21,524 bases of DNA from a virus. Shown here in pieces: positions 119-3,910 of this stretch (its first letter is position 1; every line of letters starts with the position of its first letter). The stretch spans positions 1-21,524 of the IMG/VR virus record IMGVR_UViG_3300031141_000049. The stretch is one strand, 5' to 3'. The notes below the pieces were generated by a model. It was given only the letters and a program-made list of their open reading frames with translations, was not told the origin of the DNA and searched no databases. The position numbers were made by a program, and so were the translations under genes.

Positions 119-913
119 TTATGCTAGCGTCACATAGTCAGATGAAGGAGCAAAAAAGATAATGTCAGCAGTTACTGCATATCCAACCGTTCTTACAATA
201 TCCCCACTGCCTGTTGGTTTTGTAGCTGTCATAGCTCCAAGCGTTCCACTGATATAGAGTGGTACACCCGGTGTCCAAGTCCATGTATCATCTCGAACAA
301 AACTTCCAGATAGAGCTACTGCCATAGCTTGCGTGTCAGTCTTCGCTTCTAGAGCAATACCCAACAAATTTATACTTGTGCCTGAAGCATCAGCATCAGC
401 TTCCAGCCACTTGCTGGCACTTCCAAGATAAACTAAGTCCATAACTGCTGAACTATATCCCGATGCTAAAGTATTTGTTTGTGGGCCAACTGCCGTATGA
501 TCCGCTCCCGGTGTAGCATCGAGCGAGAAGGCTCCTATAGTTTTATTAGTTAATGTTTCAGTACTAGAGGCTGTGATTGCATTAGAAACTAAAGTCCCAT
601 CACTCACGGCTGTATTTAACTGAGCTAATGTCGAGGTCAATGTATTATTAGCTAGGTTAATGGATTTATTTGTAAGCGTATCAGATGTTGCTGCACCAAT
701 ACCACCAATGTTAGTCAAAGCCGTTGCCGCAGTCCCGATATCGGATAAATTACTAGCAGCAATCAAATCTCCGGCAGGGAAACCACCTGCTGTAGAACCG
801 TCATGCACTACCAATACATCTTTATCTGTGTCCACAGTTACTTCTCTAAGCGCGCCAGTAAAACTGGAGTGTTCAGCAGTCGTGCCACCTCTTAGTTGTA
901 ATTTTTTTGCCAT
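119..913 (-). CDS. Tail fibre/receptor-binding-type protein with Mtd-like N-terminus
   Basis: The protein has 264 aa. Residues 1-45 (K-L-Q-L-R-G-G-T-T-A-E-H, then V-T-V-D-T, then V-V-H-D-G-S-T-A-G-G) match the N-terminal module found on many phage tail fibres and related to the major tropism determinant N-terminal domain, which docks the fibre to the tail. The middle (about 50-150) is Ser/Thr/Ala/Asn-rich with repeated 'TETLTNKTI'-type phrases typical of extended beta fibres. The last 100 residues form a compact beta-rich domain ending in DIVRTVGYAV and FFAPSSDYV, a common C-terminal module of marine phage fibres. Its start overlaps the stop of the upstream 495-aa gene by one base (TAATG). 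The tail-fibre assignment is strong; receptor binding is inferred. Confidence 0.75.
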   Translation of the reverse strand: MAKKLQLRGGTTAEHSSFTGALREVTVDTDKDVLVVHDGSTAGGFPAGDLIAASNLSDIGTAATALTNIGGIGAATSDTLTNKSINLANNTLTSTLAQLNTAVSDGTLVSNAITASSTETLTNKTIGAFSLDATPGADHTAVGPQTNTLASGYSSAVMDLVYLGSASKWLEADADASGTSINLLGIALEAKTDTQAMAVALSGSFVRDDTWTWTPGVPLYISGTLGAMTATKPTGSGDIVRTVGYAVTADIIFFAPSSDYVTLA

Positions 914-2400
914 TAACTTAGACCTCCAAAATCCATTTGTAAATTAGTACCACTTAGTGTGCCACAATTCGTAAAGTTATTATTTTGACCATCTAGCGCA
1001 CCACCTAACTGGGGTGATGTGTCCGATACTACATCTGAAATTCCCGGCGCGAGTGCGGCGAAAATAGAACCCGTGTAGTACTTAAGCACGTTAGCTGTGC
1101 TGTCATACCAAAGATCACCTTCTGTTGGTGAGCCGGGAGCCGAAGATGCAATCGTATATTCGTTTGCATATCTATTAACATCAGCTATTGAGGTAGCTAC
1201 AGTACTCATGGCAGTTACGTTGCCTGAGGTTCCTAGTACATTCATATCCGAAACTACGTCTGCTGTACCTAATGTATTTAAGTCAGCAACTACGTCTGCT
1301 GTGCCAAGAGTATTTAGGTCACTTACTACGTCTGCTGTGGCGAGTATATCTAGGTCAGTTACTACAGCGGCTGTACCTAAGAGTGCCATATCAGCGATTA
1401 CTGCGGCTGCTGCTAGTGTGTTTATGTTAGCTATTGCATCTGCAACGGTAGTAATGTCTCCACTACCACTTGAAGTAGTAAGAGCATCAGCTACCGAGCC
1501 TAGATCTTCGCTATAGACAACATCACCAGCAACGATATTAATATTAGCTATATTAGTAGCTACAATATTGGTATCGCCTTCTTTTGGGACTATCTTATGG
1601 TATCCATATGTATTTAGAGTAGAAGTACTAATCACCTGCATACCCAGACCATCAGCTATAGTAGTACTCTGATAAGTAGAAGGAATACCAGTAATAGTTA
1701 CAGTAGTTCCACCTACAGTTCTACCAGTAGTAGACTGGCCTGCACCATCAACTACAACTCCTCCTACATTTGCTATAGACACTACAGTACCAGCACCATC
1801 ATCAGGATCTGGGTGTGCATTCGGGAAGGTAACTTCAGTTGCAATAGCTACAAAACCACCTACAGCATTAACAATGGCTACAATGTCATCTCTGACCGCT
1901 TTAGATGTAGGTATGGCTTCATCAGAGCTAGATAGAGTAGTCTGCAATGTCACTTCTTCAAATGCACCTGACCCACCTGTAACTCGTCCTAATATCTTAT
2001 TAGTTGCGCTTGCAGATACTATCTTTGCAAACGTAATATTAGCATCTAATACTTTTGCAGTAGTAACCGCATCATCAGCAATCTTAGCAGTCGTTACATT
2101 TACATCTGCTATCTTAGCTGTGGTTATGTTTAAGTCTGCAATATGAATTGTATCTATACTACCATTTACATATTGACTTGAGTCGATATTACCAAGCTGA
2201 GTCTGTATATTAGACGTTACCCCCACCAGATAATTTAACTCAGCCGGGGTAGAACTTACGATAGCGTTAATGTTAGGGAAATCCCGCAATAGAACATCTT
2301 TAATATTGCGTATATGGTCATCACCTTCACTACGTGAATCCGTCAGTACAGGATTACTAGCAACTAAATCACTTATATGTGTAACACTTTCTAATGCCAT
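913..2400 (-). CDS. Long repeat-containing tail fibre/appendage protein (495 aa)
   Basis: Residues 1-65 (ISDLVASNPVLTD, then GDDHIRNIKDVLLRDFPN) share a module with the start of the next upstream gene (2410-3078), probably the tail-attachment part. Residues 87-128 contain about four 10-residue repeats of the type (I/V)TTAKIADxN, common in phage fibres. Residues 190-275 look beta-helical. Residues 341-400 are five consecutive 12-residue repeats (LGTADVVSDLNT type), which probably form a helical rod. Residues 419-446 (SAPGSPTEGDLWYDSTANVL) are a widespread fibre module. The C-terminus ends in a short segment carrying 'SPQLGGALDGQNNNFTN'. No lyase or chaperone domain is evident. Tail fibre is a confident class call; its receptor is unknown. 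Confidence 0.75.
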   Translation of the reverse strand: MALESVTHISDLVASNPVLTDSRSEGDDHIRNIKDVLLRDFPNINAIVSSTPAELNYLVGVTSNIQTQLGNIDSSQYVNGSIDTIHIADLNITTAKIADVNVTTAKIADDAVTTAKVLDANITFAKIVSASATNKILGRVTGGSGAFEEVTLQTTLSSSDEAIPTSKAVRDDIVAIVNAVGGFVAIATEVTFPNAHPDPDDGAGTVVSIANVGGVVVDGAGQSTTGRTVGGTTVTITGIPSTYQSTTIADGLGMQVISTSTLNTYGYHKIVPKEGDTNIVATNIANINIVAGDVVYSEDLGSVADALTTSSGSGDITTVADAIANINTLAAAAVIADMALLGTAAVVTDLDILATADVVSDLNTLGTADVVADLNTLGTADVVSDMNVLGTSGNVTAMSTVATSIADVNRYANEYTIASSAPGSPTEGDLWYDSTANVLKYYTGSIFAALAPGISDVVSDTSPQLGGALDGQNNNFTNCGTLSGTNLQMDFGGLS

Positions 2401-2409
2401 TTAATTATC

Positions 2410-3078
2410 CTATGCGACAACTGGGCCAGTAGACAGTCCACCCTGACCTACTACATACCAGACAGAATTAGTAAAAAGCAAATGCACTGAATCGCCAGCA
2501 TCTGCAAAGGTAATGTTAGTATACCCACCACCGCTAGTCGGAGTTAACGTGCCATCTCCACCATCCGTAATCAGAATAATAAAGAGATGCTGCCCCTCAA
2601 CTCCATCAGCTAAAGTACCCGCATCAGCTCCTGTGGTTGCCCACTCTACGATTGAATCCGTCAATGGCAATGCACCCGCCCCGGTCAGAGCAGCCGTTCC
2701 AGAGGTAATAAATCCGCCCTGAACGTCCACCTTACCTGTGCCGTTTGGAACTAGAAGTAGGTTACCATTAGCATTTGTACTAGAGATTGTATTTGCATCT
2801 ATTGTAATATTGTCTACTACCCATTGATTGACCTGACTAGATGAACCCACAATAACCGCTTTAGAAGCAGTAACTGTTCCGCCTGTCACACCCGTAATAT
2901 TAGACAATTCTGCTTGTGTTGCAGTACAGCCAGTAGTCGATGTGACAAAATTAGGAAAATCGGTCTTTAATGCAACCTTAATGTTCCTTAGATGATCATC
3001 CCCAGCACCCACTTCATCGGTCACAAGAGGATTGGTACTCACTAAATCTGATATGTTTAAAACTGTTTCCAAGCCCAT
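2410..3078 (-). CDS. Tail appendage protein, shares N-terminal module with 495-aa fibre
   Basis: The protein has 222 aa. The first 65 residues (ISDLVSTNPLVTDEVGAGDDH, then LRNIKVALKTDFPN) are clearly paralogous to the start of the neighbouring 495-aa protein. Residues 90-125 hold a 'TISSTNANGNLLLVPNGTGKVDV' strand-rich segment. The C-terminal 90 residues form a beta domain with GVEGQHLFIILITDGGDGTL and AGDSVHLLFTNSVWYVVGQ, a module found on many phage fibre and surface proteins. A related ending is seen in the 148-aa protein at 6574-7020. The gene begins right after the Trp-rich gene and precedes the 495-aa gene by 9 bp. It is likely a short fibre or an adaptor between tail and fibre; which of these cannot be decided. 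Confidence 0.7.
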   Translation of the reverse strand: MGLETVLNISDLVSTNPLVTDEVGAGDDHLRNIKVALKTDFPNFVTSTTGCTATQAELSNITGVTGGTVTASKAVIVGSSSQVNQWVVDNITIDANTISSTNANGNLLLVPNGTGKVDVQGGFITSGTAALTGAGALPLTDSIVEWATTGADAGTLADGVEGQHLFIILITDGGDGTLTPTSGGGYTNITFADAGDSVHLLFTNSVWYVVGQGGLSTGPVVA

Positions 3079-3276
3079 TTAAACCGCTCCCCACGAAAAT
3101 TTGAATATTGAGATCGAATCCCACGTGCCAACAACGTCTGCCCAGCTAGCACTGTAGTCTATAGACCATTGTGTTTTCTTAGATCCCCATGTACCTGTTT
3201 CAGCCGCCCAAGTGTTAGTGGATTGCGACCAATACTGCGTTTGAGATACATGAGTCCAAGTAGTCTTACCACCCAT
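3079..3276 (-). CDS. Small tryptophan-rich protein, unknown function (65 aa)
   Basis: I chose the ATG at 3274-3276 because it follows a GGAGAG site and gives only an 11-bp overlap with the end of the adaptor gene; a longer reading to 3360 lacks such support. The product has 65 aa and eight Trp, at about positions 7, 16, 23, 30, 37, 45, 52 and 62, so mostly seven residues apart, in a Ser/Thr/Gln/Tyr background with almost no charge. No signal peptide or known domain is visible. It sits between the adaptor and the tail-fibre genes, which suggests a small structural part of the tail or neck, possibly a repetitive beta structure with stacked indoles. Function is unknown. Confidence 0.6.
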   Translation of the reverse strand: MGGKTTWTHVSQTQYWSQSTNTWAAETGTWGSKKTQWSIDYSASWADVVGTWDSISIFKFSWGAV

Positions 3277-3910
3277 GATGCTCTCCAGTAATGTGTAAAG
3301 CTCCACCAGAATGCCTGTCACGCTGATCTGAAGTCTGTGCAGCTTCAATAGCCTTACCAAACATTAAGCCCCATTTCTGAGATTCAGCATCATCTCTTAA
3401 GTACGTCCATAGCTCAATTAAGGAGCCATATAGGTATATATCAGGGTTTTCTTCTAATAGAAGATTAGATTCATTTGAAGCACTGAGAGCGGTAGGAGCC
3501 TTGTAATAAAGAATTTCTAGTGTGTAAGCAGCGCTTGGAGTAGGTACAATTCTTATTTCATTAGATACAATTGTGTAGTATCTAGGAAAGCCAGATCCAC
3601 CCGCAAACTTCCTACCATTAGTAACATCCAACGCTTCAGGTGTTTGATACTCAAGATCAGCCGGTACTCCACCTTCTCCATCAACTAGCTTAAAATGTCT
3701 AGCTTGCTTGTAGCCGGGTGGCAATGCGTAGTAATCCTGCCCACCTACTGTAGACATTTGCGATCTAAATTCTAATGCCCTAATACGCAATTCACGCCCA
3801 ATACGAGCTTCTGCTAAAGCAATGAAATCAGGGATACGTGCCGTTAAGTCAGTACGATCAGCCCAATCTGCTAGAGCTGCTGTTAAGTCTGTATAGCTAG
3901 TTAAGGCCAT
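3266..3910 (-). CDS. Head-tail adaptor protein (SU10 adaptor family)
   Basis: The protein has 214 aa. The N-terminus (YTDLTAALADWADRTDLTAR, then IPDFIALAEARIGRELRIRALE) is the typical helical start of the phage adaptor family known from phage phiSU10 and many podo- and siphoviruses. It is followed by YYALPPGYKQARHFKL, EIRIVPTPSAAYTLEILYY and LYGSLIELWTYLRDDAESQKW, all in family order and at usual length. In this family the protein forms a ring below the portal and closes the head for tail attachment. Its place two genes after the capsid gene fits. The C-terminus ends with a His-rich tail (HITGEHHGW). The next gene starts inside its last codons. Confidence 0.8.
   Translation of the reverse strand: MALTSYTDLTAALADWADRTDLTARIPDFIALAEARIGRELRIRALEFRSQMSTVGGQDYYALPPGYKQARHFKLVDGEGGVPADLEYQTPEALDVTNGRKFAGGSGFPRYYTIVSNEIRIVPTPSAAYTLEILYYKAPTALSASNESNLLLEENPDIYLYGSLIELWTYLRDDAESQKWGLMFGKAIEAAQTSDQRDRHSGGALHITGEHHGW

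Follow-up and report, generated by a model that had tools for sequence, protein, structure and literature searches.

A tryptophan-rich mini-protein between the adaptor and fibre genes of a viral contig, a candidate stand-alone fibre dock

Gene content of the window and the mini-protein gene

The window, meaning the whole stretch of DNA that was analysed, is a 21.5-kb viral record (21,524 nucleotides; IMG/VR record IMGVR_UViG_3300031141_000049) that carries an SU10-type structural module on its minus strand. Encoded there are terminase, portal, scaffold, major capsid protein, a 123-aa protein, adaptor, mini-protein and two fibres; another fibre-like gene has an Mtd_N domain. The portal is recognized by model SU10_portal (E 5.6e-194) and the major capsid protein by SU10_MCP (E 3.5e-87). 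The translation of fibre 2 contains tandem repeats of the form LGTADVVxDLNT, with a weak match to LED_rpt that stays under the cut-off of that model. The features around the mini-protein gene are as follows.

3266..3910, minus strand: adaptor (SU10_adaptor; Pfam PF24175, E 7.1e-38)
3079..3276, minus strand: mini-protein gene, proposed stand-alone fibre dock (open reading frame; Trp statistics; dN/dS 0.13; homologues)
3208..3258, minus strand: proposed first Trp triad, residues 7-23, gaps 9 and 7 (7/16/23 opening shared with L029, L035, L038 and L040; putative grouping)
3181..3213, minus strand: stretch TWAAETGTWGS, like TWAEESGSWGS of the nozzle loop in a twin contig (score reached by 12 of 5000 Trp-preserving shuffles)
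3142..3189, minus strand: proposed second Trp triad, residues 30-45, gaps 7 and 8 (after the pattern of L034 and L030, where triads recur; putative grouping)
3091..3123, minus strand: closing Trp pair at the C-terminus, residues 52-62, gap 10 (9 of 12 short-triad relatives end in a pair of gap 10-11)
2410..3078, minus strand: fibre 1, 222 aa (phmmer match to 9nxk, E 1.5e-6), anchor at 2899-3078 by anchor-profile match; proposed partner
913..2400, minus strand: fibre 2, 495 aa (tail-fibre PHROGs), anchor at 2227-2400 by anchor-profile match; proposed partner

The mini-protein, MGGKTTWTHVSQTQYWSQSTNTWAAETGTWGSKKTQWSIDYSASWADVVGTWDSISIFKFSWGAV, has 65 residues, with Trp at positions 7, 16, 23, 30, 37, 45, 52 and 62. 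Its gene starts inside the adaptor gene, sharing the last 11 bases of the latter, and a GGAG lies closely upstream of the ATG; the stop codon of the mini-protein gene abuts the ATG of the fibre 1 gene. The first-pass annotation had marked an open reading frame with eight Trp at 3079-3276, between the neck adaptor and the fibre genes. Those coordinates are exact and the coding strand is minus, the plus strand of the same interval having an internal stop; the setting is indeed a tight operon with an SU10-type adaptor and two fibres. At the Trp frequency of the 11 other proteins in the window (57/3614), the probability of at least eight Trp in 65 residues is 8.7e-6, and given eight Trp, 3 of 200,000 random placements put all seven gaps within 7-10 residues. 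The early description of Trp about every seven residues is fair as an approximation and fails as a strict period, because the gaps are 9, 7, 7, 7, 8, 7 and 10.

Two IMG/VR contigs encode an identical mini-protein and three encode a version of 77% identity; in every case the gene sits between the adaptor and the same fibre. One of the 77% identical copies, in L004, was aligned. It gives a dN/dS of 0.13, with 10, 5 and 23 differences at codon positions 1, 2 and 3, and retains all eight Trp; the mini-protein gene is under purifying selection, and therefore real and conserved. A search for Trp-periodic homologues at the same locus had been suggested at the outset, and the Trp spacing is conserved there. 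Pfam gave zero matches for the mini-protein at E up to 1, PHROG gave no family match (best E 0.38), and tblastn against 50,697 phage records returned six matches only, all with E of 3 or worse. Sequence matches in PDB (best E 0.0034) are to designed repeat proteins, the domains scoring a few bits each; these reflect composition and were rejected.

An AF2 model of the mini-protein, built from four rows, has a mean pLDDT of 46 and is uninformative. The suggestion of a repeated strand, or of a helix with one aromatic face, finds no support in that model, and the Trp residues of the SU10 analogue lie in a loop gripped by a fibre.

Array proteins beside the adaptor in related phages

A scan with an adaptor profile was followed up at the best 80 loci among the matches listed. 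Downstream of the adaptor, 38 of these 80 loci have an open reading frame with at least four Trp spaced 6-12 residues apart, and 52 have a short-triad or decad array, with Tyr allowed in decads. Several of the remaining loci stop shortly past the adaptor. Besides the window type (L026), in 12 loci the adaptor is directly followed by a larger protein whose first Trp are closely spaced: at 6/13/20 or 7/16/23 in ten loci, at 5/12/18 in L037, and at 7/14 plus Tyr21 in L030. These 12 proteins are 143-273 aa long where complete and have a Trp-free middle stretch. Triads recur at 126/133/140 in L034 and at 46/53/63 and 152/159/166 in L030. Nine of the proteins close with a Trp pair of gap 10-11 and two with four Trp at gap 10, while L040 is cut by the contig.

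The mini-protein of the window likewise lies directly downstream of an SU10-type adaptor. It has no residues to spare between its opening, second group and closing pair, and so no Trp-free middle stretch. The central beta stalk is absent as well; because 65 aa leave no room for it, against 143-273 aa in the relatives, the window form would be a variant without a stalk. The eight Trp are probably to be read as 3+3+2, two triads plus a C-terminal pair. Residues 45-62 might instead be taken as a triad with gaps 7 and 10, resembling the SU10 dock loop, and a total of eight, not being a multiple of three, counts against a reading in triads.

Several other small or oddly named genes were seen at such loci. 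A relative of the triad proteins at L028:2612-2836 has Tyr replacing Trp. Another stand-alone mini-protein, of 59-69 aa, lies directly after the adaptor at L039:1361-1570, L044:4127-4306 and L073:1198-1407; it has Trp near both ends and a middle like GY[IF]E[TV]E...LLATE, and is followed by a fibre that starts MATKK. Bradyrhizobium phage ppBeUSDA76-2 has an unannotated 79-aa open reading frame between adaptor and fibre (L022:4564-4803) that consists of two similar halves, both carrying Trp at either end (GFSPxGFSRxPR...AGLW). The array proteins at L016:6761-8287 and L014:4938-5768 are publicly annotated as "ribonuclease E" and "serine-rich adhesin", names that look like misannotation. No Trp array was seen in the fetched stretches of three capsid relatives in genome_contigs.

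Many array proteins end in Trp decads, spaced almost exactly 10 residues apart, with the array ending 1-6 residues before the stop in nearly all. The number of decads is even in 45 of 47 array proteins (L009-L105; for example L066:4533-5294 and L105:4514-5479), namely six in 30, four in 14 and two in 1, and odd in 2; the count accepts Tyr or Phe as a decad position and leaves out L074, at a contig end, and L097, where the array is interrupted. With such even numbers the decads do not resemble triads, and a dock built of triads leaves them unexplained. The idea that Trp decads of gap 10 dock the T-type fibres (anchor TNLLLTKPE...TWGTK) was dropped. Among array loci of the best 80 that have one anchor type, the table of short triads with G anchors against decads alone with T anchors reads 8/0/0/23, and 7/0/0/8 of 53 after removal of adaptors of at least 90% identity. 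Decads also close the arrays of the Leu-Asp phages described below, 12 of which have no T anchor in the fetched stretch; for this reason decads probably bind something common, and the even-numbered decads may bind a part shared by all these tails.

A model of the decad-type array protein of L066 (23 rows) is confident in a beta region that starts at residue 18 and continues to about 130, with lower confidence as far as 195. Its ends, residues 1-15 and almost all of the Trp tail at 198-253, are mostly below pLDDT 50. Such ends fit strings that would become ordered only when gripped, low pLDDT being no proof of disorder. Foldseek against PDB gave a best E of 0.48 for the model, and the seven BFVD matches with E up to 0.001 are all unnamed or uncharacterised. 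For the stalk, the top structural match is the putative adhesin 3ljy (Z 15.4, rmsd 3.0 over 175 residues), from which no function is inferred.

Nozzle loops, fibre anchors and array types

The dock loop of the SU10 nozzle, gp17, is the nearest structural reference. According to PMC9509320, Trp839, Trp847 and Trp857 of the loop are arranged as a star with quasi-threefold symmetry. Every Trp is in contact with one chain of the trimeric short fibre gp16, whose chains each clamp the loop ahead of a Trp by means of Tyr23-Ile24-Tyr25. The gaps in this loop are 8 and 10. The dock loop of a Kuravirus relative is GPIWADFQEISWDDPSIKELVWRKD, and the last 22 residues of the mini-protein are SWADVVGTWDSISIFKFSWGAV. 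The likeness of the mini-protein to the SU10-type loop can be seen but is weak, its score being reached by 219 of 5000 Trp-preserving shuffles for the window and 43 of 5000 for L004.

The phage's own nozzle gives a closer comparison. The window ends before the nozzle gene, which was therefore read from the twin contig G004, where the mini-protein is identical. The G004 nozzle is 33% identical to that of Clew-1 (E 9.1e-91), itself near-identical to the solved chain 9nwi_Y. It has the loop TWAGGGTWAEESGSWGS, and at the dock-loop position reads SPTWAGGGTWAEESGSWGSTN, with Trp gaps of 6 and 7. The stretch TWAAETGTWGS of the mini-protein stands beside TWAEESGSWGS of this loop. The score of 58 for the pair is the top of its row and its column in a comparison of 11 loops with 12 arrays. 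Of 5000 shuffles that preserve the Trp positions, 12 reach the score for the window; for L004 the figure is 10 of 5000. Trp triads at the loop position also occur in the nozzles of L112, L113, Clew-1 and VP1, the VP1 stretch being WDNFVGGWESTGLW. Set side by side, the gaps are 9,7 / 7,8 / 7,10 in the mini-protein, 8,10 in SU10, 7,7 in Clew-1, 7,6 in VP1 and 6,7 in the twin nozzle, so that the mini-protein too places three Trp about 6-10 residues apart within a polar stretch. Being encoded by a separate 65-aa gene, and not as an insertion in the nozzle beta-propeller, it is classed as working like the SU10 loop and not as a nozzle protein.

Both fibres of the window start with the SU10 short-fibre anchor, and for either fibre none of 5000 shuffles reaches the alignment score. 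The window thereby encodes two fibres with gp16-type anchors in the same genome as the mini-protein. A profile was built from 12 anchors of the window and its relatives, with SU10 and LUZ24-like rows left out. Against PDB it matched 9nxk (3.6e-23), VP1 gp13 8zkk_p (3.4e-7) and SU10 gp16 7z47_I (7.1e-6), and beyond these only weak, unrelated entries (0.024 and 0.44). The nozzles of all three phage kinds carry a Trp triad at the loop, and entry 8zkk contains three gp13 chains together with the VP1 nozzle. The SU10 clamp Tyr-Ile-Tyr is replaced by Glu-Val-Gly in fibre 1 and by Ser-Arg-Ser in fibre 2; since this clamp, known for SU10 only, is not kept here, the SU10 contact is transferable only so far.

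All 14 records chosen from the Trp-triad group and its kin matched the anchor profile, a result that is partly built in, as eight of the records supplied profile rows and L003 and L005 are near twins of suppliers; L029, L035, Kuravirus and Clew-1 supplied none. Of 13 records from phages that lack short Trp triads, none matched (11.3-35.8 kb, with the L036 record as positive control; L069 and L104 among the 13 have no array and L105 is of Leu-Asp type), where absence is no proof because the records are often fragments. L041 and L048 have the fibre anchor and no array was seen. The number of triads, nozzle plus array, was tried as a predictor of fibre number and rejected: it equals the number of anchors in 3 of 5 records (G002, Clew-1 and Kuravirus), with three triads against two anchors in G001 and G004, both fragments.

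Nozzles in this group differ in the type of their dock loop, and the N-termini of the array proteins differ with them. Some nozzles have Leu-Asp triads in the dock loop, such as GYTLEALDAAFGALDILPASLDG in L080, whose array protein opens with the similar motif PTLEQLDNWGTLDTLPYSLDS. In a third group there is no insertion at the dock loop, in 8 of 8 nozzles recovered (14 records searched; L115-L122), and the seven phages of this group with an array protein have a Tyr/Gly-rich opening with neither triad. The third-group nozzles start ...PPGVYRNGTEYQ...

By one fixed rule, the N-terminal type of the array equals the loop type of the nozzle in 18 of 19 pairs (3 Trp, 8 Leu-Asp, 7 neither), a figure reached by 0 of 100,000 label shuffles; because the lineages are few, the 19 pairs are not independent events. 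They comprise the cases in which both proteins were to hand, leaving out L043 and L053, where the nozzles are cut short. The sole mismatch is L105, whose nozzle stretch LEGLDAYGTVDSIQTSWDD fails the rule though it is Leu-Asp-like in look. The window, read via its twin contig, pairs a Trp array with a Trp nozzle loop. Applied to open reading frames of at least 120 aa, arrays included, the rule flags 28 of 783 N-termini; a stricter Leu-Asp pattern finds 7 of 12 Leu-Asp arrays and 0 of 93 control frames. Alignment scores of arrays with their own nozzle loops are high (z 8.7 to 11.9) in L014, L093, L072 and L080. They are middling (z 3.5 to 5.2) in the window, L009, L051 and L061, the Leu-Asp pair of L061 being weaker than most at 3.5, and near chance in L042 (z 0.1) and L036 (z 2.0), both of Trp type, and in L086 (z -0.7), of Leu-Asp type.

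Proposed function, alternatives and known systems

We estimate at roughly 70% the probability that the mini-protein is a stand-alone, multi-site fibre dock, a detached and repeated copy of the nozzle loop. The protein would be an extended, Ser/Thr-rich strand that does not fold alone, and its phage a short-tailed one whose structural module is of the SU10/LUZ24 kind. A trimeric tail fibre would hold on to each run of three Trp through its N-terminal anchors, every chain taking one Trp, in the manner of the SU10 nozzle dock loop. Two triads plus the C-terminal pair could then hold fibres beyond the nozzle's own dock. We infer its incorporation into the virion, the contact of Trp with fibre, the 3+3+2 grouping, the stoichiometry and the attachment to the tail. 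The first-pass idea of an unrecognised tail part is favoured on indirect grounds, by the SU10-type adaptor, the podophage-type fibre anchors and the Trp pattern like that of a dock loop.

A virion protein whose Trp residues staple adaptor, nozzle or capsid vertex together, and do not touch fibres, would also account for a gene that overlaps the adaptor gene. All three array classes include proteins that end in a Trp pair or in decads, regardless of fibre type, which is what contact with a common tail part predicts. We nevertheless consider this unlikely for the mini-protein, as the N-terminal motifs of arrays follow the fibre-dock type of the nozzle and the fibre anchor is missing from the 13 records in which short triads are missing. 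Aromatic repeats are often glycan binders, and the gene sits among fibre genes, so the Trp might form an aromatic ladder on host surface sugars. That reading appears quite improbable: the mini-protein keeps eight Trp and most residues at 77% identity with a dN/dS of 0.13, unlike a fast-changing receptor binder, it matches no carbohydrate-binding family, and the same motif lies within nozzle loops.

Little more can be said for an assembly factor, acting on fibre trimers as a chaperone or scaffold and lost before the virion matures, and we judge it improbable to the same degree. A small gene immediately ahead of fibre genes is suited to such a role, and a dock motif would also suit an aid to trimerisation; the relatives, however, are fused to a long beta stalk, a better fit for a structural part, and the same motif persists in the mature SU10 nozzle. 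Short Trp-rich peptides can act on membranes, but a membrane-active or lysis peptide is scarcely credible for a sequence that has few basic residues, no hydrophobic segment and stalk-bearing homologues at the same locus.

The fibre dock thus preferred would be the minimal form, all dock and no stalk, of a broader arrangement to which we give about even chances. In SU10/LUZ24/P22-like podophages, nozzle loops and separate arrays would share Trp or Leu-Asp triad motifs as a modular dock code, and detached, multiplied copies would let one tail hold more fibres, and more kinds, than the nozzle docks. Holding several kinds of trimeric fibre on a short tail bears on host recognition. If the arrangement is true, many nameless phage genes become readable as fibre docks (52 of the best 80 loci), and the assignment of fibre to dock becomes predictable from short motifs.

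We know of no search for such array proteins in virions. The cultured relative OANV2, an Octadecabacter podophage, has a gp11 that ends in six Trp decads; in the text of its paper the terms "proteom" and "mass spectrometry" are absent (PMC9239159). The open literature, among the matches listed and with most subscription papers outside it, gave no description of stand-alone Trp or Leu-Asp fibre docks, and the mini-protein is probably a minimal, stalkless member of a fibre-dock protein family of which we found no description there.

Among known systems, the SU10 nozzle gp17 (PDB 7z47; PMC9509320) is alike in having a three-Trp loop, which holds a trimeric fibre with an anchor of the window type. 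The SU10 loop is one triad inside a 1000-aa nozzle, whereas the window has a separate 65-aa protein with eight Trp. The nozzle loops of Clew-1 (LUZ24-like; close to 9nwi_Y) and VP1 (8zkk_O) have triad gaps of 7,7 and 7,6, near the window spacing, and their fibres have the same anchor; these triads are nozzle parts, known here from sequence, with a putative fibre contact. Near its adaptor Clew-1 has no Trp-rich gene, and the two small proteins after the adaptor are without Trp and have no significant PDB match. Array proteins of related phages (C72C1 WJE88089.1; ct2t2046 UOF77096.1, annotated as a serine-rich adhesin) share locus and dock motifs with the window, but are 143-321 aa long with a beta stalk in those read, while the window form is stalkless. 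The anchor gp6 of receptor-binding proteins in staphylococcal phage Andhra is likewise a separate Trp-motif protein that fixes such proteins to the tail; its WxW lies in an alpha helix, and the likeness to the mini-protein is one of proposed function (PMC9710869). What is known is the principle of the Trp contact, from SU10; what is new is the proposed detached, repeated dock and its match to the nozzle's own dock type.
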